Shown here in pieces: positions 24,076 through 39,171 of a stretch of 43,389 nucleotides of DNA. Under the pieces are notes generated by a model. It worked only from the letters and a program-made list of their open reading frames with translations. It did not search any database and was not told where the DNA came from. This DNA is from a virus. The stretch lies in IMG/VR virus record IMGVR_UViG_3300025732_000080, positions 1 through 43,389 of that record. One strand, 5' to 3'. A program made the translations under genes and the position numbers. How positions within the stretch are numbered: position 1 is the first letter of the stretch; each line of letters begins with the position of its first letter.

Positions 24076-24936
24076 TTAACTATTCTTAAACTTGCTATCT
24101 AATGCAGCAAGTTGGTTCATTTGTTGCTGAATGATTTTATCCGTTTCATCGTTGCCCGTTGTATAGGGTTTGCCGCTTCCGGCCTGGCCATTGCCCCCCC
24201 CTGTATTCGCTTGTGGAAATAACTTTCTTTCGGCTGCAATTTGTTTAATACCATCTTCTAAACTTTTAAGAATAGAATGGCCATCAGCATTAATAACTGG
24301 ATCGTTTTCGCCTCTGAAAAGTGTACCATCTTCTTTGAAATTCCAGCCCTTTTCTTTCATTACACTTTGTACAATGATCTTAGCATTTTCTTTGTGTGCC
24401 GGATCACTACCAAAGTCAAGTTTGCCGAACACATCACCAAATAGGCTTTGCCGTTTTAGTTCTGCTTGTTCACGTTGTGTTCTTGTTTCGACTTCTTCCA
24501 GCTTCTTTTTCCAAGCTTGTTCTGTTTGCTCAAACTTTCCTTTGAATGAATTAAATTCAGTTTCGATAGCTTTGTATTTGTCCTGCCATTCGGCAGTTCT
24601 CGCATTCTTTGCTGAATCTAAATCAGTTGAATACTTTTCTTTTACCTTTCCTAAAAACTCGTCAGGGTCAAGCGTTGCCGCTTCTTCACCACTAAGACCA
24701 AGGCTTAATGTATCATTGATCTTTTTTTTGTAGTTTTTTAATTGAACTATTCCAGCTTCTTTTAGCTGCTTTTTGTAGTCCTCACTACTTTTTAAAATCG
24801 CTGCCCTTGTTTCCAAATAATCCTGTGCCGCCTTTTCAAGTTCAAAACCTTCTGGCGGGGAATCTGGTGAATTTGCCGCAATCTTAGCAACTTCTCCCAA
24901 TCCTACTTTTTCCATAAATTCATTAATCCATGCCAT
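24076..24936 (-). CDS. Capsid scaffold protein
   Basis: 286 residues, highly charged and helical throughout; about residues 100-165 (RTAEWQDKYKAIETEFNSFK and the Glu/Lys/Gln-rich helix after it) form a predicted coiled coil, followed by a Gly-rich linker and an Asn/Gln-rich C-terminal helix. This is the typical build of siphophage scaffold proteins (gp8-like minor structural family) that guide capsid assembly and are then lost or cleaved. It lies directly before the capsid gene. Confidence 0.75.
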   Translation of the reverse strand: MAWINEFMEKVGLGEVAKIAANSPDSPPEGFELEKAAQDYLETRAAILKSSEDYKKQLKEAGIVQLKNYKKKINDTLSLGLSGEEAATLDPDEFLGKVKEKYSTDLDSAKNARTAEWQDKYKAIETEFNSFKGKFEQTEQAWKKKLEEVETRTQREQAELKRQSLFGDVFGKLDFGSDPAHKENAKIIVQSVMKEKGWNFKEDGTLFRGENDPVINADGHSILKSLEDGIKQIAAERKLFPQANTGGGNGQAGSGKPYTTGNDETDKIIQQQMNQLAALDSKFKNS

Positions 24937-25545: not shown

Positions 25546-25578
25546 GTGCTTTAAAATTTATTGTTAAAAAAAAATTAA

Positions 25579-26589
25579 TTACTTCCCGTACTTCTTTACC
25601 TTTTCATCCACTATTTTCTTATTGGCTTCGTATAATTCCTTAGCCCTGCCTTCTAATTTCTTTTCTAAATCTTCTTGTAATTCTTTGCCTTGTCTGTCGT
25701 ATTCATTACTAATATCCTCCTGTGCTTTGCTTCTTTTGTCTGTTACCCATAAAGCCCTGTGCCTACAATTATGGCCGCCTCTTACTACGCTGAATGTTTC
25801 CTTTGATAACGTTGGAAGGTGTTTGCTGTAACCCTCACCATTCTTTTTAGCCCATGCAATTTCTGAATTGACCTTATCGGCAGGAATAAACCCGTTATAC
25901 TTAACTACCCATCTAACACATTGCGGTCTTGAATCTCTTACAAGGTCGCCTAAATACCTTATGTTTTCCGCTTTAATCGCTTTGCCAATTCCCTGATCTA
26001 TGCTGCCTGTATATCCAAATAAAGCATCGTGCGCCACCTGCCCTGCATAACGGGCAAGGATGCCCCCGTTTTTCTTGTCGCTTAACGCCACATCAAACAG
26101 CCTTTTAGTTGCGCTTCCAACGCTTAAGCCTAAGACTGCGTGTTCATAAATAATCGAGCGGAGCGGATTAATTACATTTAACCCGAATGTTTCCTTTTGC
26201 CCTAAACTTCTTGTCAATGTTTCTGCATATCCCTTTTTTATGGGGTTTAATTCTGCTTTTAAAATCTTAGCCTTTAAGTCAGGATTTGCCGCTATACTTA
26301 ACTCCTTTTTAATATCTTCCAGCTTATCGAATTGCTTTACAAGCCCCGTTATTTCGCTGTTATACCCTGTTTTATTGAGTTCTACCAATAACTTTTTTTC
26401 AAAGTTTAGAATCAATTTATTAACGTCATCGTCAATAAATAACCTGCCGTTTTTTTGTGGTAAACTTTCAAGTAAAGCTAAAACCTTTTGAAATAAAATA
26501 GACTGAATCTCTACCATTGAACCACCAAAGTTCGCTAAGTAAACGTCTAAATTCTCAATATCGGCCTTTACTAAATCCTTAATTGACAT
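25579..26589 (-). CDS. MuF/SPP1 gp7-like head morphogenesis protein
   Basis: 336 residues, helical N-terminal half, then DSRPQCVRWVVKYNGFI and VRGGHNCRHRALWV, which correspond to the DxRpxC...H...GxxCRC/H signature of the phage Mu F-like head morphogenesis family. These are minor capsid proteins bound to the portal. The gene overlaps the portal gene by 11 bases. The C-terminal ~60 residues are a highly charged coiled coil. Confidence 0.8.
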   Translation of the reverse strand: MSIKDLVKADIENLDVYLANFGGSMVEIQSILFQKVLALLESLPQKNGRLFIDDDVNKLILNFEKKLLVELNKTGYNSEITGLVKQFDKLEDIKKELSIAANPDLKAKILKAELNPIKKGYAETLTRSLGQKETFGLNVINPLRSIIYEHAVLGLSVGSATKRLFDVALSDKKNGGILARYAGQVAHDALFGYTGSIDQGIGKAIKAENIRYLGDLVRDSRPQCVRWVVKYNGFIPADKVNSEIAWAKKNGEGYSKHLPTLSKETFSVVRGGHNCRHRALWVTDKRSKAQEDISNEYDRQGKELQEDLEKKLEGRAKELYEANKKIVDEKVKKYGK

Positions 26590-28225
26590 TTGAAATTTCT
26601 AATCTGTCAGGAACCAACGTATCTAAAATTGATTCTGTTTGCTTGTAAATCTGCTCTTGCGTTAAATCTTCAACTCCTTTATTTTCGATAATTTCGATAA
26701 TTACATTTAATGCCCTACGGCTCTTTGCTATTTCTCTGGATGTGTAAACTCCCGAAATAAGCAATATTTGCAGGTCTTCGTTCTTTTCTAATGAAGCAGG
26801 ATAATACTTAATCAAAACAGACATTGCCGTTTTCATTAATTCGTTATCCTGATAAATGCTATTATAATATTCCCGTGCTGCTTGTATTTTCTCTGATCCT
26901 ATCGCTTCATTAAAATTCTGTTTTAGAATTTCAGGCGTTTTTATTTCTATTCTCTTAGGTGTAACAATCAAAGGAAAATCTATCCAATCAGCTTTATTGA
27001 CGTTTAAAAGCTTGTGGCACATTTCAAAAAACTTCGTACCGGTAGTCTTGTAAGTAAGGAATAAAAGATAAGAGATAAACTCCTCAAACGATGCAAGCCG
27101 TTTTTTCATTGCCTCACCGCTTTCTGACTTATCAATTAAGGCATCTATTCCAACGCTCTTTTTTGCTTCAAATAGATACTCTTTCCATGTTCTTGAATGA
27201 AATTCGGCAACTGCTGTTTCTGGATTAATATACTTAGGCTCTACTATTTTTTGATTTTCGCCCTGCATTGAATCACCAGGCGGCACGACAAAATCATCTA
27301 AATCGCTCGGCCTCTTTGCTAGTCCTGTGCCTTTACACACGGGGCAATCTACCGTGCGCCCTTCCTGGTTTATAACAGTTCCTTTATCGCATCCTGAATT
27401 ACCACATTTTAAACCTGGCCTAATGAGGATAGAGTTCATTTTAAGCCTGATCGCCTGGTCAGTTGTAAAACTGACTAAGCTTTCATCTAAGTACTCATAA
27501 GTTGAACTTAAAATACTTTCGTTGTATTGTTTATTTGTTGTTGCATCAAATGAATAAAGTCCTGGAAGATAAGTAAAAGGCAACTCGCCTAAATTGTGCG
27601 GATAGATTAACTCATAAGTTATTTTATCGCTTACAGTTCCTACAAACAATTCCATTTTATCGGCCACATAGAATTGGTTGCTACCTTGTTTTAAGATAAT
27701 TACAAAGTCATCCGTTACATAGCGCATATTATACGCTATTATTTTAGGCTTAATTTCTACCGGTGTGAATTGATCTATAAACTTCGGAAAAGGAACAAGG
27801 ATCGCATTCGGGTCAATAAAGGCATAAGGTATCAATGAATTGATCGACCACCTCATAAAATTCATTTTATCGCCTGAAAACATAAAAGGCTCTGAATCGA
27901 ACCAATTTAAAAACTTAGAATTATTTGATCTTACCTCAAGCGGAATATTTGATAAACAGCTAACTACACCTTGAACAATTTTTCTCGGGACCTCTTTTGT
28001 AAACTGCCTTTTATTTGTGTTTCTGTATTTTTGGATTGCGTCATTCTCGTTCGGAAATTTGTCTTTAATCAGATCAATCTCTTTTAACCACACGTTATGC
28101 CTTATCGATTGCTTGTAAACCCTTAACTCATTTTCGATAAAGTCATCCTTTATATAGGTTTTTCCCTTAATAGGGTCTGTCTTTACTACCTCAAAATAAA
28201 CTTTACTTACTTTATCGAAATCCAT
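26579..28225 (-). CDS. Portal protein with a zinc-ribbon insertion
   Basis: 548 residues. Position before MuF-like, scaffold and capsid genes, and a typical portal layout (helical and beta wings, then a long stem helix region near SESGEAMKKRLASFEEF) make this the portal, the dodecameric ring through which DNA enters and leaves. Residues about 274-301 carry C274-x4-C279 and C294PVC297KGTG, a DnaJ-like CxxCxGxG zinc-ribbon pattern, which I do not expect in most portals. It may stabilise the crown or bind a partner. Confidence 0.8.
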   Translation of the reverse strand: MDFDKVSKVYFEVVKTDPIKGKTYIKDDFIENELRVYKQSIRHNVWLKEIDLIKDKFPNENDAIQKYRNTNKRQFTKEVPRKIVQGVVSCLSNIPLEVRSNNSKFLNWFDSEPFMFSGDKMNFMRWSINSLIPYAFIDPNAILVPFPKFIDQFTPVEIKPKIIAYNMRYVTDDFVIILKQGSNQFYVADKMELFVGTVSDKITYELIYPHNLGELPFTYLPGLYSFDATTNKQYNESILSSTYEYLDESLVSFTTDQAIRLKMNSILIRPGLKCGNSGCDKGTVINQEGRTVDCPVCKGTGLAKRPSDLDDFVVPPGDSMQGENQKIVEPKYINPETAVAEFHSRTWKEYLFEAKKSVGIDALIDKSESGEAMKKRLASFEEFISYLLFLTYKTTGTKFFEMCHKLLNVNKADWIDFPLIVTPKRIEIKTPEILKQNFNEAIGSEKIQAAREYYNSIYQDNELMKTAMSVLIKYYPASLEKNEDLQILLISGVYTSREIAKSRRALNVIIEIIENKGVEDLTQEQIYKQTESILDTLVPDRLEISNVN

Positions 28226-32661: not shown

Positions 32662-34358
32662 TATGAATTACATTTAAAACGTATGTCCTGAAAATCAATA
32701 GAACACGTCTGATAATTAATACTAAAACCTCCCATTATTACCCCATCACCATACTTACTACTTATTTTTATATTCAATTTGTTTGATCTTAAAAAATTAA
32801 CTGCGCTGCAAAAATCTTCCGGCTTCCAAGTTATCGTTTGAATTTCTACAAACCTTTGCAAATTTAAGGCAGGATCGTTAATAAAATGAAATTTATCGTA
32901 TAAATTAGTGAACCAGAACGGATAATTGTATTCATATTTGCCTGAATAGTCAGGTATGTCGCCTTGATTATTGTTTTGTGGCGGTTCTATTTGCGTTTTA
33001 CAAACAAAGTGAAATTTGCCTGACCGATAGCCCAATGTGTTAGTCTGGTCAATACAGAGCAACTTAAAATTTGAAGCAAATGTTTGAGTTAAAACAATTG
33101 AATGCAGGTAATTAATTTGTCCGAAAGCATCCCAATAAAATGAAAGTAAACCATCCTTGAACTTATCTTCCGTGCAACGAACGGGGCTAACTTCAATCTG
33201 TGGCCTTATGTCGCCTTTCCTGTTTTTATAGATTAAACCTGGATTGTATTCTGCATTCTTACGATAAAACTCAGTTGCTCTATTACCCTGTGTATCAATT
33301 GAATCATATGCAAATTCGCCTAAAAATCTGGCAGGATTCTTTTGATTATCAAACGTATATTCAAATTCATTCGTTATACGCCCAGCTTTTACCTCCTGCT
33401 CTAAGTTAAATGTAACTTGTTTTAAGTTGTCAAAGAAATCAATACGTTCAAATATTAATTCGTTACCTATTATTCGATAATCAGCATTGAATACGGGCTT
33501 AAGAATATTCAATAATTCTACCGGATTAATATTTGGTGCATTTTCTTCGTCAAAGTGATATTTGTCAATGTCCGTAATATCAAAACCTTTGGAAAATTGT
33601 TTTGCAAAAATAGCCGTATCAATGTAGGCAGGATCGTAAAGTATTGAAGATCGAAAAGTTAATCCTGACTTATTCGCCCAAAATTCCAAAATATCCTTAA
33701 TGTAGCATACAGTAGTGTATTCCCCGGCTCCAAGAACGTCATCCCCGATTTCGCCTACTGTTTGATTAACGTCTATATTGTCAATGTCAACTCCTGGCAA
33801 TGTATTAACCGCATCAATAATTGCATTTATTACTGCGGCAATGGCTAAAACCAATAATCGCAAAGGCGCAAGTACAATGAACCAAAAAATAACGATAACC
33901 TTTGAAATATAATCTAAATGATTAACAGTTAATACTTTATGGATTCTATTTTTACCTAACGCCCAATTAACAAACCCATGCTCAAAATCCCAGAAATACG
34001 TTTGTTTTAGTACTTCGGTTGCCTGGTCGTATTCGTTTTTTGTATTAAGATTTAGTTTGATCGTACAGTTAACCGGATCAATTGAAACGCCTTGAGATTT
34101 TAAAACAAAGTCTAATGATAGTTTGCAGTCGCCTATCTTAATTCGTACATCGTATTCATTATTGATTGAATTACATGAATCGTTAAAAAAAATATCATTC
34201 CAATATTCGTAACCTTCGCCTGACAAAATTACCTGACTTGTCTGCCCTAATTCAATTAAACCATCTTCTTTAAGACTGAATGATTCTGTTAATTCGTCAA
34301 GCCCTGCCGCCCATTGTGTAAAATCCTGACCACCTATAAATAAACGATTTCCAGCCAT
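32661..34358 (-). CDS. Distal-tail/baseplate protein with an internal hydrophobic segment
   Basis: 565 residues immediately after the tape measure gene (TAATG overlap at 34358), the usual place of the distal tail protein. Most of the protein is beta-rich. Residues about 154-184 form a long hydrophobic stretch (VIVIFWFIVLAPLRLLVLAI, then AAVINAI), which is odd in a soluble structural protein and could insert into the host membrane when DNA is ejected, or simply pack into a multimer. No motif identifies it further. Confidence 0.65.
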   Translation of the reverse strand: MAGNRLFIGGQDFTQWAAGLDELTESFSLKEDGLIELGQTSQVILSGEGYEYWNDIFFNDSCNSINNEYDVRIKIGDCKLSLDFVLKSQGVSIDPVNCTIKLNLNTKNEYDQATEVLKQTYFWDFEHGFVNWALGKNRIHKVLTVNHLDYISKVIVIFWFIVLAPLRLLVLAIAAVINAIIDAVNTLPGVDIDNIDVNQTVGEIGDDVLGAGEYTTVCYIKDILEFWANKSGLTFRSSILYDPAYIDTAIFAKQFSKGFDITDIDKYHFDEENAPNINPVELLNILKPVFNADYRIIGNELIFERIDFFDNLKQVTFNLEQEVKAGRITNEFEYTFDNQKNPARFLGEFAYDSIDTQGNRATEFYRKNAEYNPGLIYKNRKGDIRPQIEVSPVRCTEDKFKDGLLSFYWDAFGQINYLHSIVLTQTFASNFKLLCIDQTNTLGYRSGKFHFVCKTQIEPPQNNNQGDIPDYSGKYEYNYPFWFTNLYDKFHFINDPALNLQRFVEIQTITWKPEDFCSAVNFLRSNKLNIKISSKYGDGVIMGGFSINYQTCSIDFQDIRFKCNS

Positions 34359-36853
34359 TAAATTGCCATTCTTTTAAGTCTTAAACTTTGTGCATCGTTT
34401 GCCAGGATTTCAATTTTAACTTGTTGCCTTCTTAATAGCTTAGTATTCTGCTTCAATAGTCTGTTAGTTTCCCTTTGCTCTTTTGTTATGTTCTTATCGC
34501 TCAAACCCTCTCCTGTTCCTGCTCTTAATCCTAAATGAATTAAGCCCGGCACATCCTTGTTCCTAACAAATGAAGGGATTAAAGAATTTTGTTTTGCCGT
34601 TAAAATTCGCTCCCTACCATCCGCCCAAATCAAATGTCCATCACGCCCCGACCTTGTTCTCTTTATCTTATCCCCTACATTTTCGGCACCTTCCCAGAAT
34701 TTAGGTAATGAGTTTAGCTGACCTTGAACGGCTGCTACCGTTGAAGCAATTGTCGCAATAAGCGCAACTGAAGCCGCAATGCCACCGAATACATTACCCT
34801 TCCCGAATGCTGTCGCAATTGCCTTTATACTTTCGCTTGCCGTAACTGCATTATTCGCTATTATCTGCGCTGTATCAATTGCCCTTTGACGTTCAATAAA
34901 TTTCTGCCTTTGCTCATTTAATCGGTCCAATCTCTTTTGTTCCAATGAAATTTGTGAAGCATTACCGCCCTCTTGAATGCTCAAAAGCTGCCCCAATCTT
35001 TTTTCCGTTTCTGAAATTAGGAAGTCTGTTTTATCCAATTCGGCCTGTGTAAATGTATCGAATGCTTTTACCGCCTCCTGCGAAAATGTTTTTAATTGGT
35101 CGTTAATTACTTGCTTGTCTTCGTCTGACAAATCAAATAGCTTCTCAAAAAATGAAGGCTGCTCAAAGTCAACTACCTGAATACTTGCCGTTAATTCCTT
35201 TGCATCTTTAATGAACTTTTGACGTGCTGCGTCTGTGCTGACAACTTCGGGCGTTATGCGAATAGGCGTTACAACTTGTATTCCCCCTTCCCTGCTTATC
35301 TTTTCGCTTTCCTGCCTTGCTTTTTCTTCTAATGCATCTTTTAATTTTGAAAAATTTATTTCAAAATCAGGATCAACTATTAAGCCTTCTTTTTTAAATA
35401 CATCAAACTGCTTTTGTAGATTAGTTAACTCTCTTTCCAAGTCTAAGCCTATTTTCTTAACCCTCTTAGAAACATCTGTGGAGTCTGATATTTCAATACT
35501 TACGTCTTGCAATGTTCGTTCAACACCTTCTTTGAACTTTACTAATTGCGCCCTTAAGTCATCAAGTCTTTTTTTCTCTTCTTCGCTTAGTTCTTCAGTT
35601 GCATTATTCCCTACCTTGTCAGCTGCTTTTTGAAATAATGACAAATATTCTTGAATAAATTTCTCATCTCTTTTTTTAGCGTCTTCTAAATCTTTTTCCA
35701 ACTTATCCTCTTCGATGATAAATAATCTTCCTCCGAATTTCAAACGACCTTCTGCGATCGCTTCAAACAGTTCACCAATTTTACCAGGCGCATTTGCGAT
35801 AGCTTGAACAAATTGAGTAATTCCCGAAAAGGCCGCGCCGATTACTTCGCCAAATACTTTTAATCCTGGAGTGATGAACTTAATTACATCCAATAACGCC
35901 CTTAGTCCAGCATTTACGGAAGGTAGTAATGCTTCGCCTACTTCTTCCAAAACATCTCCTAAGCCTTCTTTAAATTGCTTTGCCGTACCTTCCGCAGACT
36001 TACCGAATTGATCTAAAACTTGCCCGTATTTGCCCGTTTCGCCTGTTGCTTGTTCTATCCCTTTAGCAAAATCCTGAAACGATAACTTACCCTGTTTTCC
36101 TAATTTTACGACTTCTTCCAAGGTTTTACCCGTGCTTTTACTTATGCTTTCCGCTAAGCCTGGAATGTTTTTATACAATTGCAAAAAATCCCTTCCAAAT
36201 ACTTTGCCCGTGCTGTTTGCTCTACCGTATGCGTCTGACAAATCATTGAATGATACACCGGCTCCACTTGCAATCGCTGCAATTTGTTGGACTATTTTAG
36301 GCGTGTCCTTTGCGCTTATATTGAACTTGATTAGGTTTTGTGCAACTTCTACAATCTGTTCGCCTTCAAATGGCAATGTAGCTGCAAGGCCATCTAATTC
36401 ATTTACTAAATTCTTTGCAGTTGTAGCATTAACTCCGAACGCCTCAAATGACTTTGCCATTTTTTCAAGCTGTGCGGCTGCCTGGATTGATCCTGTTACA
36501 AATCTTGAAAACTCAATTAATCCGAATGCGATTCCTAATCCTCTTAATGCCTGACCTGCTATTCCGGCTGCTCCTTGTAATTTGCCTAATGCTGTTGTTT
36601 GCTTGTTTATTCCTGCCTCCGCTTGTTTTAATGCAGCATCTAATTTCCTTCTTTCTAATGTTAGTTGTCCTATTTCCTCTGTTATCTTTGCAAATTGCTT
36701 CGGGGCTGTATCTCCTAATTTAACAGCCTCTTTTTGCAATTCTTCAATAGATTTATCAAGTTGTTGTATAGCTGCTGTGGCTTGTTTAATAAGCAACTGA
36801 TTAAACTGTGTTTCAATATCAACGATTACGGATTGGACTATTGGCTGCGCCAT
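34358..36853 (-). CDS. Tape measure protein
   Basis: 831 residues from ATG 36851-36853; an upstream TTG would add 14 residues within the chaperone frame. The N-terminal part carries a tape-measure domain (LEKMAKSFEAFGVNATTAKN, SGAGVSFNDLSDAYGRANS, KVFGRDFLQLYKNIPGLAES). Long charged coiled coils follow, then a hydrophobic Ala/Ile-rich stretch (GGIAASVALIATIASTVAAV), and a C-terminal domain (GRDGHLIWADGRERILTAKQ). The length of this protein sets tail length; about 830 residues suits a siphovirus tail of moderate length. It overlaps the upstream frameshift product by 35 bases, as in lambda G/T-H. Confidence 0.85.
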   Translation of the reverse strand: MAQPIVQSVIVDIETQFNQLLIKQATAAIQQLDKSIEELQKEAVKLGDTAPKQFAKITEEIGQLTLERRKLDAALKQAEAGINKQTTALGKLQGAAGIAGQALRGLGIAFGLIEFSRFVTGSIQAAAQLEKMAKSFEAFGVNATTAKNLVNELDGLAATLPFEGEQIVEVAQNLIKFNISAKDTPKIVQQIAAIASGAGVSFNDLSDAYGRANSTGKVFGRDFLQLYKNIPGLAESISKSTGKTLEEVVKLGKQGKLSFQDFAKGIEQATGETGKYGQVLDQFGKSAEGTAKQFKEGLGDVLEEVGEALLPSVNAGLRALLDVIKFITPGLKVFGEVIGAAFSGITQFVQAIANAPGKIGELFEAIAEGRLKFGGRLFIIEEDKLEKDLEDAKKRDEKFIQEYLSLFQKAADKVGNNATEELSEEEKKRLDDLRAQLVKFKEGVERTLQDVSIEISDSTDVSKRVKKIGLDLERELTNLQKQFDVFKKEGLIVDPDFEINFSKLKDALEEKARQESEKISREGGIQVVTPIRITPEVVSTDAARQKFIKDAKELTASIQVVDFEQPSFFEKLFDLSDEDKQVINDQLKTFSQEAVKAFDTFTQAELDKTDFLISETEKRLGQLLSIQEGGNASQISLEQKRLDRLNEQRQKFIERQRAIDTAQIIANNAVTASESIKAIATAFGKGNVFGGIAASVALIATIASTVAAVQGQLNSLPKFWEGAENVGDKIKRTRSGRDGHLIWADGRERILTAKQNSLIPSFVRNKDVPGLIHLGLRAGTGEGLSDKNITKEQRETNRLLKQNTKLLRRQQVKIEILANDAQSLRLKRMAI

Positions 36854-37621
36854 CTTGTTTTTTAGCTTGTCGATTAAATACGGCCAAATATTCAAAATAT
36901 TCTGCCGCTTTCATTTCGCTAACCTCCTTTAGTGTTATCGTGCCTTTTGATGCAATTGCAAAGTTATGCAAATTTTCGTTAATTCTTTCACTTATATGGC
37001 CTAACTCCTTACGGTATAACTCCCAAAAAATACCAAGTTGAACAAAACCTTTATTGTCTAAATCCCAATACTTTCTAACATTTCGTATGCTCCGGCCTTT
37101 GGGCTCTTCCAGTATTCCTCGAACTCTGAGGTCTTGAAAGTAGCGTCCAAGTTCGCTAGATATTGCGTTGCTATGTTCGTAAAAAAAAAGCGAACATCTG
37201 GATTCTTACTTAGCAAATCCCGTTTGATCTTATTATGTTCGGGGCTAATTTCGTTTAACGGCTCGTCGTCGATCAATACGAACGCCTCAATGATTGCAAT
37301 CGTTAACCAATACCATTTATCTTTTTGTCTGTTAATTGCGAACCTGATCATTTCAGCTAATTTAGGAGCATTGATTTGTAATTTATTCGGGTCTTTACAA
37401 AGTGCGTCTAATTGGTCAGCAATTGCAGCGAAATAGTCCAATGGTACGCCTGTATTGATTTCTTCATTCTTTGCCACAAAATAAAAGAAACGGTTAACAC
37501 AATAATTCGGAAGCGCATCTAAAACATAGTATGTATGTCCATCCATTTCAAGGGCTTTTTTTAACCCTTCACGTTCTTTTTTTATTTCCCTTTTATACCA
37601 GGCTTTGAGTTTTGCTATCAT
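36819..37621 (-). CDS. Frameshifted tail assembly chaperone (GT-like, 267 aa)
   Basis: If ribosomes slip -1 at CCCAAAG (37103-37097), translation of the 187-residue protein changes after Lys175 and continues for 92 codons (GRSIRNVRKYWD...) to TGA at 36819-36821, giving 267 residues. The second frame has no upstream ATG and is open throughout; its sequence looks protein-like (FWELYRKELGHISERINENL, TLKEVSEMKAAEYFEYLAVF). This matches the lambda gpG/gpGT arrangement directly before the tape measure gene. gpGT-type proteins bring tail-tube subunits to the tape measure. A Shine-Dalgarno-like AAAGGAGG at 36923-36930 also precedes an internal ATG. Confidence 0.75.
37058..37621 (-). CDS. Tail assembly chaperone, short form (G-like, 187 aa)
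   Basis: 187 residues if the ribosome does not shift. Helical protein (basic start IAKLKAWYKREIKKEREGLK, hydrophobic helices around IRFAINRQKDKWYWLTIAII, acidic C terminus). Position between terminase and tape measure and the slippery site near its end identify it by context as the chaperone G form. Stop TAG at 37058-37060. Two products from one gene are expected at a ratio set by slippage. Confidence 0.75.
   Translation of the reverse strand: MIAKLKAWYKREIKKEREGLKKALEMDGHTYYVLDALPNYCVNRFFYFVAKNEEINTGVPLDYFAAIADQLDALCKDPNKLQINAPKLAEMIRFAINRQKDKWYWLTIAIIEAFVLIDDEPLNEISPEHNKIKRDLLSKNPDVRFFFTNIATQYLANLDATFKTSEFEEYWKSPKAGAYEMLESIGI
37097..37103 (-). promoter_or_regulatory. -1 ribosomal slippery heptamer CCCAAAG
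   Basis: On the minus strand C CCA AAG reads as X XXY YYZ in the zero frame: P-site CCA slips to CCC and A-site AAG to AAA. Codon phase was checked against the stop at 37058-37060. It is the same type as lambda GGGAAAG. A run of nine U (37189-37181) upstream could also slip, but it sits farther from the end of the zero frame. Confidence 0.7.
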
Positions 37622-37622
37622 T

Positions 37623-37895
37623 TTAGTTCATTAAAATTTGTTCCTGTTCTGCCTCGTATGCATCTACCGCCCCTAAAATTACGGCTGCAAATTCTACATT
37701 GTCATTCATTAAGTCAACTAAGTTAGAACAAAGTTGTGCCGGGCATCCTGAAAACTGTAAACTTGTTAGTGTTTCGTTGCCCTCAACGTAACTGCCAACG
37801 ATTAATAAAGATTGTGGCGAATCTCTTTTAAGTTGCTTTTCATCGACTTGTTTAGTTAATACAAGGTCTTTAATCTGTTTGCTTATCTTATCCAT
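37623..37895 (-). CDS. Uncharacterised 90-residue protein between TerL and tail chaperone
   Basis: Small acidic protein (QLCSNLVDLMNDNVEFAAVI near the middle) that overlaps terL by eight bases and is followed directly by the chaperone gene. Position in the packaging-to-tail operon suggests a small head-tail or tail accessory role. No motif recognised. Confidence 0.7.
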   Translation of the reverse strand: MDKISKQIKDLVLTKQVDEKQLKRDSPQSLLIVGSYVEGNETLTSLQFSGCPAQLCSNLVDLMNDNVEFAAVILGAVDAYEAEQEQILMN

Positions 37896-39171
37896 TGTTT
37901 CCGTTTACTAAGCTTGAAAATCTTAAAATGTCTTTTATGCTTTTAAATTCAGCATGGATGCCATAACGCATTGCGTCAAATGAATCCATTTTATTTGTTG
38001 CCCTGTCCTTTATCAATTGCGAACTACCTTCTTTTGGTTTCGCTATTGAAATATCCCGTGCTAAGATAGGGCATTTATTTTTATCCACAAAGACTAAATT
38101 GTGAAAAAATGCTGTATTGCATAAATCCCTTGAATAATCCAGCATAGGGTTTTGTTTCCTTGTATCAATGAATCTGCTAAATGGTATTCCCAAGGTCCGG
38201 CTTATTATCTCATAATCCGTTGTATTACCCCGTGTATCTGACTTGCTTCCGGAACTGTCGCCCGTTACAAAATATGCTCCTTTAAAGAATGTCAATGAAT
38301 CGAGATAACGCCTTACCATTTGCGCTAAATGGTGCGTTCCACCATCTGCTGTTAACTCCATAAAGAAATTAATACCGCCCCCGTTCTCTGCCTTGTCTCT
38401 TATTGTTTGTTTGAAAATACAAGTACATGGATCGACGTTAAAATCCCAACAAAGTGTAATAGGTGCATATTCATCAATCGGAATATCCTCAATTATATGA
38501 ACATCCGGCTTTAACTCATAAAGCCATAACTGACCGCTAAAGTCAACAAATTGCGCTTCCCATTCCTGTGCATAAACTAATGGGCTTAAAATCTTCTTTT
38601 GCGTAATTATTTCTTCTGGTCTTATGTATGGGTTATTTGTTGCCCTCATAGTCCAATGACCCCACTCATCGCCTTTGTTTAGTGTGATCGCTTCTATTGC
38701 TGTATTCTTTTTTGGAGTGCCAAAAAACCATACCTGACCGTTATAGTCTGCAATCGTTGGTAAAAGCACGGCCATTAATATATCCAAATCATAGTAAAAG
38801 AATTGGAACTCGTCAAACAAAACCTTGTGGAATTTCTTGCCTCTTAGCTTTTCGAAGGCTTCGTAACTATAAAACCTTATCCGGCCTCCGGTTATTGTTC
38901 GTATAGTTAACCTTTGCTTAGAAACCATAGCCACGCAATCTGCCATTCCGCTAACAAGTGATTCGTACATTTCAGCACAATAACCGTAATCAGGTTGCAC
39001 TATTGCCACCTCCTGCCCAGCCAACGCCCACACGTTTGAAAAGTAAATGATGCCGGAAGTCTTGCCCGACCTCCTTGTCGATGGGACCGAATTTAGTTTT
39101 TTATCAGACCCAAAAACTAACTTTTGATCCGGTATTGGAATAAAATCCGAATCAATTTCAACAGTTACCAA
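37888..39171 (-). CDS. terL: Terminase large subunit
   Basis: 427 residues. Walker A STRRSGKT (31-38), Walker B VLFDEF (117-122), motif III VWFFGTP (147-153), then a C-terminal RNase H-like nuclease domain with acidic residues in CWDFN (D243), GDSSGSKSD (D305) and DSFDAMRYG (D396, D399). TerL packages DNA into the prohead using ATP and cuts the concatemer. The start is TTG at 39169-39171, since no in-frame ATG lies before the Walker motif and an upstream stop limits the frame; the gene overlaps the 62-residue gene by 14 bases. Confidence 0.9.
   Translation of the reverse strand: MVTVEIDSDFIPIPDQKLVFGSDKKLNSVPSTRRSGKTSGIIYFSNVWALAGQEVAIVQPDYGYCAEMYESLVSGMADCVAMVSKQRLTIRTITGGRIRFYSYEAFEKLRGKKFHKVLFDEFQFFYYDLDILMAVLLPTIADYNGQVWFFGTPKKNTAIEAITLNKGDEWGHWTMRATNNPYIRPEEIITQKKILSPLVYAQEWEAQFVDFSGQLWLYELKPDVHIIEDIPIDEYAPITLCWDFNVDPCTCIFKQTIRDKAENGGGINFFMELTADGGTHHLAQMVRRYLDSLTFFKGAYFVTGDSSGSKSDTRGNTTDYEIISRTLGIPFSRFIDTRKQNPMLDYSRDLCNTAFFHNLVFVDKNKCPILARDISIAKPKEGSSQLIKDRATNKMDSFDAMRYGIHAEFKSIKDILRFSSLVNGNNG

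Follow-up and report, generated by a model that had tools for sequence, protein, structure and literature searches.

A tail-assembly-chaperone-like gene of uncultured phages, probably expressed in two forms through -1 slippage on a conserved T-run

The closest described system is gene G/GT of phage lambda, which, according to PMC5009743 (citing Levin 1993 and Xu 2004), lies immediately before the tape measure gene, encodes both a short form and a long form extended in frame -1, and has a -1 extension without a long ORF start of its own. A cluster of phage tail chaperone genes expressed via frameshifting, comprising HK97-like proteins, was described by Antonov et al. 2013 (PMC3711429), and the reporter efficiencies of 6–7% given there provide a scale for expectation. 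U_UUU_UUU slips less readily than A_AAA_AAG in E. coli (PMC5009743). Two products of one gene are also obtained from a nine-base run of identical bases in Thermus dnaX, Shigella mxiE and IS elements, with slippage on a U-run yielding the longer product in the case of mxiE (PMC1088944), and for many bacteria polymerase slippage becomes likely once a run reaches about nine A or T (PMC1088944; PMC3711429; PMC5009743). None of these three examples is a phage tail gene, all being cellular or belonging to IS elements, and no paper linking tail chaperones with slippage on a T-run was found in the open-access literature.

The DNA analysed here, termed the window, is the whole 43,389-nucleotide stretch of the IMG/VR virus record IMGVR_UViG_3300025732_000080. 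It carries a chaperone-like gene directly upstream of the tape measure gene, and the three lambda traits of position, a short form with a -1 extended long form, and an extension lacking a long ORF start of its own all recur, whereas no sequence relation to lambda G/GT is detectable. The HK97-like proteins of the Antonov cluster likewise belong to another family, and, unlike the nine-base runs of dnaX, mxiE and the IS elements, the run at the proposed slip site is only T7 in half of the present family. The following features were assigned, all on the minus strand:

37888..39171 (-), terminase large subunit (TerL), two genes upstream (PHROG terminase, 1.4e-23)
37058..37621 (-), 0-frame gene coding for the short, 187-aa form of the tail-assembly-chaperone-like protein (ORF; family N-domain profile); predicted peptide FFFTNIATQYLANLDATFK
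36819..37205 (-), open -1 frame, ranked first among 652 reading-frame segments of the window when scored with the extension profile of the relatives (E=0.23)
37181..37189 (-), T9 run, proposed slip site, with the in-phase T_TTT_TTT at 37187-37181 (homologous heptamer in 48/48)
37181 down to the stop at 36821-36819 (-), 120 residues in frame -1 added to the long form; predicted peptide of the long form FFFYEHSNAISSELGR
37058..37180 (-), dual-coded overlap of the short-form tail (frame 0) and the extension start (frame -1), both frames open
37097..37103 (-), CCCAAAG, in phase, unconserved and judged incidental
34358..36852 (-), tape measure protein gene (Pfam TMP_3, 1.7e-22; PHROG tape measure, 1.5e-19)

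The layout in the window agreed with the original prediction, which had been made from the letters and an ORF list: the 187-codon ORF at 37621-37058 is present in that list, 205 bases separate its stop from the tape measure ATG (36852), the -1 frame stays open as far as the TGA at 36821-36819 without an ATG until 36914, and C_CCA_AAG, then proposed as the slip site, is present in phase at 37103-37097. The -1 frame begins at 37205, directly past a TAA and 16 nt before the T9 run, and overlaps the tape measure gene by 34 bases at its end, an alternative TTG start for the latter lying at 36895. It comprises 128 open codons and holds no listed start-to-stop ORF of at least 60 aa. The T9 run (context CGC TTT TTT TTT ACG), on which the prediction had been silent, falls within the open part of frame -1, with CCCAAAG following about 80 nt downstream. 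Since the two frames have similarly coding-like codon usage across the overlap, the window by itself does not discriminate between the slip sites. An assembly error in T9 is unlikely because the near-identical contig L001 has the same T9. Two further runs, T9 at 25566-25574 and G8 at 24194-24201 (-), are among the window's longest homopolymers and represent possible slippage sites.

Direct searches with the window gene, its -1 extension and a 565-aa tail protein matched no phage record, the window gene itself retrieved only contig L001, and neither Pfam nor PHROGs nor a set of 50,697 phage records gave a match to it. Relatives were reached via the terminase instead. A first terminase alignment reached L010, in which TerL is followed by small genes, a gene of about 200 codons and the tape measure gene, and in which the -1 frame opens at a T9 run; a refined alignment extended the set to 80 viral contigs and 9 genome loci. 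The gene was located in these by an N-domain profile, and 63 loci were found to span the slip region, 48 of them distinct (window included). Against a family profile built without it, the window gene scored E=2.9e-8, and the match stops right at the Phe-Phe encoded by the T-run. For the window lineage no nearer relatives were found except near-identical contigs, and the gene profile, run against 395 genomes of the phylum of G001, matched none besides G001 itself. Two divergent copies were detected in Bacteroidota MAGs (L210 and L211; profile E 9e-11 and 5e-9), in which T9 is likewise present and the -1 extension runs to about 100 codons, and the occurrence of family copies in these MAGs suggests Bacteroidota hosts. 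Judged from these comparisons, the family is absent from Pfam, PHROGs and the phage records searched, the frameshift trick itself being known.

The order of the chaperone-like gene and then the tape measure gene is the same in the relatives, sometimes with inserted genes between the two (L098 11305-11886; L092 11999-12899; L104 4904-5389), and in several relatives some of these inserts look like HNH/AP2-type homing endonucleases by eye. L005 (PP511318.1, Dulem virus 31) is recorded as Microviridae, yet it is 35.8 kb long and has genes for a tail sheath, a tube and a tape measure protein, and its taxonomy looks wrong. The window also encodes, at 26579-28225 (-), a 548-aa protein with CxxC zinc-ribbon-like motifs, without a significant Pfam or PHROG match or a relative in IMG/VR, which is perhaps the portal, by position.

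An in-phase T_TTT_TTT occurs at the homologous protein position in all 48 distinct sequences, as T7 in 25 (mostly GAT TTT TTT ATC), T8 in two and T9 in 21 (the window and 20 others). The window is the sole member with its T-run in a codon phase different from that of all relatives. Both slip codons are TTT throughout (96/96), as against 35% TTT among Phe codons elsewhere in the same genes, and the codon ahead of them always ends in T. In every sequence not truncated by a contig end the -1 frame runs on for 19–79 codons past the 0-frame stop, and the conserved dual-coded tail measures 24–65 codons across the family. Comparison of the sequences thus establishes two-frame coding and the position of the T-run family-wide. 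CCCAAAG was present in 0/47 distinct relatives, being confined to the window's own sequence, and was rejected as the slip site. Because T_TTT_TTT is conserved in 48/48 and CCCAAAG in 0/47, the junction is placed after Phe147, and not at Lys175 as had been predicted; with the T-run as the slip site, the stretch from 37180 to the 0-frame stop would be dual-coded. The predicted length of 267 residues stands, as it results wherever within the overlap a -1 slip falls. The alignment of relatives that had been proposed as a check therefore upheld the second frame but put T_TTT_TTT in the place of the slippery word, and the relatives lend strong support to a programmed -1 frameshift ahead of the tape measure gene that yields a long form of 267 residues.

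Selection in both frames was assessed for 49 pairs of relatives, which are non-independent, although the contrast is large, and which do not include the window lineage, since this has no moderately diverged relatives: past the 0-frame stop, the -1 extension has a pN/pS of 0.14, equal to that of the upstream 0 frame, and within the overlap pS is only 0.17 in frame 0 and 0.11 in frame -1, as compared with 0.45–0.52 outside. By this pattern the overlap reads as dual-coding, with synonymous change suppressed in both frames. Members of the T7 clade conserve the second codon position of frame 0 within the overlap, though it is the wobble position of frame -1, which argues that the short-form tail is also constrained. 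For the window, the top rank of its -1 extension among the 652 segments is suggestive of homology to the relatives' extension, at a weak E-value. Support specific to the window comes from its N-domain match, from a T9 lying at the homologous point, and from an open frame of 128 codons with its codon usage.

The gene probably makes two tail-assembly-chaperone-like proteins through a -1 ribosomal slip on the U-run. Ribosomal frameshifting is favoured as the most likely mechanism because half of the family has just T7, in phase, a length below that usual for polymerase slippage. Most ribosomes would stay in frame 0 and give the 187-aa short form, and a fraction would slip back by one base as two tRNA-Phe re-pair on U_UUU_UUU at 37187-37181, then reading frame -1 to 36819 and giving the 267-aa long form (residues 1–147 plus 120). 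A downstream RNA hairpin was searched for in 46 sequences and none was found, the mean z being 0.05. This result, the lesser slip tendency of U_UUU_UUU in E. coli, and the standing of the window as a lone lineage with its run in another codon phase and a weak extension match weigh against the reading. In the main T7 clade (24 distinct sequences, among them L142, L162 and L121) the heptamer is preceded, at a distance of 16 nt, by an SD-like AAGGAGG, the codons 7–10 ahead of the slip codons being CGC TGG AAG GAG (AAG and GAG in 24/24), and third positions at this site vary less than further upstream. It is perhaps a stimulator, but the 16-nt spacing is long, the window lacks the element, and Bacteroidota seldom use SD sequences.

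The same two products could arise by RNA-polymerase slippage on T9, a programmed transcriptional realignment in which some mRNAs receive ten Us; in the T9 lineages it could act by itself or alongside ribosomal slippage. Runs of exactly nine Ts, as the window and 20 further distinct sequences have, would suit this reading, since in many bacteria A/T runs become prone to slippage at that length (PMC1088944; PMC5009743). So would the retention of nine Ts in the window despite its different codon phase, and the process requires no hairpin, in keeping with none having been found. Against it, 25 of the 48 sequences have only T7 and two have T8, all in phase, so that a run of about nine or more A/T at the junction, expected of transcriptional realignment in all members, is not found throughout the family. 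Nor is the length of T9 clean evidence, since a Leu TTR in frame 0 combined with a Phe TTT in frame -1 can yield nine Ts from coding alone. We regard polymerase slippage as the source of the two products as unlikely. Division by lineage, with the T9 members (window included) using polymerase slippage and the T7 relatives slipping on the ribosome at the same place, draws on the fact that slippage becomes likely at about nine A/T and is judged rather unlikely, if slightly less so; if true, one phage gene family would have moved between two decoding mechanisms while its conserved dual-coded tail was kept.

A -1 shift at C_CCA_AAG (37103-37097) has on its side that the word is a canonical XXXYYYZ, in phase and within the overlap. 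In-phase words of this kind are common, the genes of this phage having 3.1 per kb of coding sequence and the chaperone-like gene four, so that one in the overlap is unremarkable by itself; its absence from all 47 distinct relatives, and the dual coding that the relatives show directly after the T-run and that a later slip leaves unexplained, make this site very unlikely. Least probable of all is that no programmed shift takes place, the T-run carrying an indel, through sequencing or real, or the -1 frame being a separate gene with its own start. Homopolymers are indeed error-prone and the -1 frame opens near one, but the two-frame layout is repeated in 48 distinct sequences and two MAG copies, purifying selection acts in both frames, T9 is identical in L001, and the -1 frame contains no ORF of at least 60 aa with a common start.

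By analogy, the most likely role of the protein is that of a tail assembly chaperone: its position, two-form architecture and conservation match those of lambda G/GT. The earlier comparison with lambda accordingly holds in the sense of 'works like', the chaperone identity following from position and architecture. By extension from lambda, the N-domain common to both forms would be the part that binds the tape measure protein, the tail-tube protein would be recruited through the extension, and short and long forms would be made in a fixed proportion. Sequence libraries including Pfam and PHROG gave no link to a known tail chaperone, and neither did Foldseek, in which a low-confidence model (pLDDT 63) had no significant match. 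What the comparison describes is a new protein family with a known trick, its putative U-run slip site placed early and followed by a long dual-coded tail. A separate case was noted in Bacteroides phage BKO1-TP4 (L212, 2078-2808), where an unrelated 163-aa gene without a T-run lies ahead of the tape measure gene, and the open -1 frame after it enters a gene annotated as 66 aa from a different start; this looks like a further frameshifted tail chaperone that has escaped annotation.

For this family, the case illustrates that a canonical-looking heptamer alone can mislead. The combination of the N-domain profile with the T-run rule may allow both proteins to be annotated in uncultured phages, and the T7, T8 and T9 members offer a natural series at one homologous site, in which ribosomal and transcriptional slippage could be compared.
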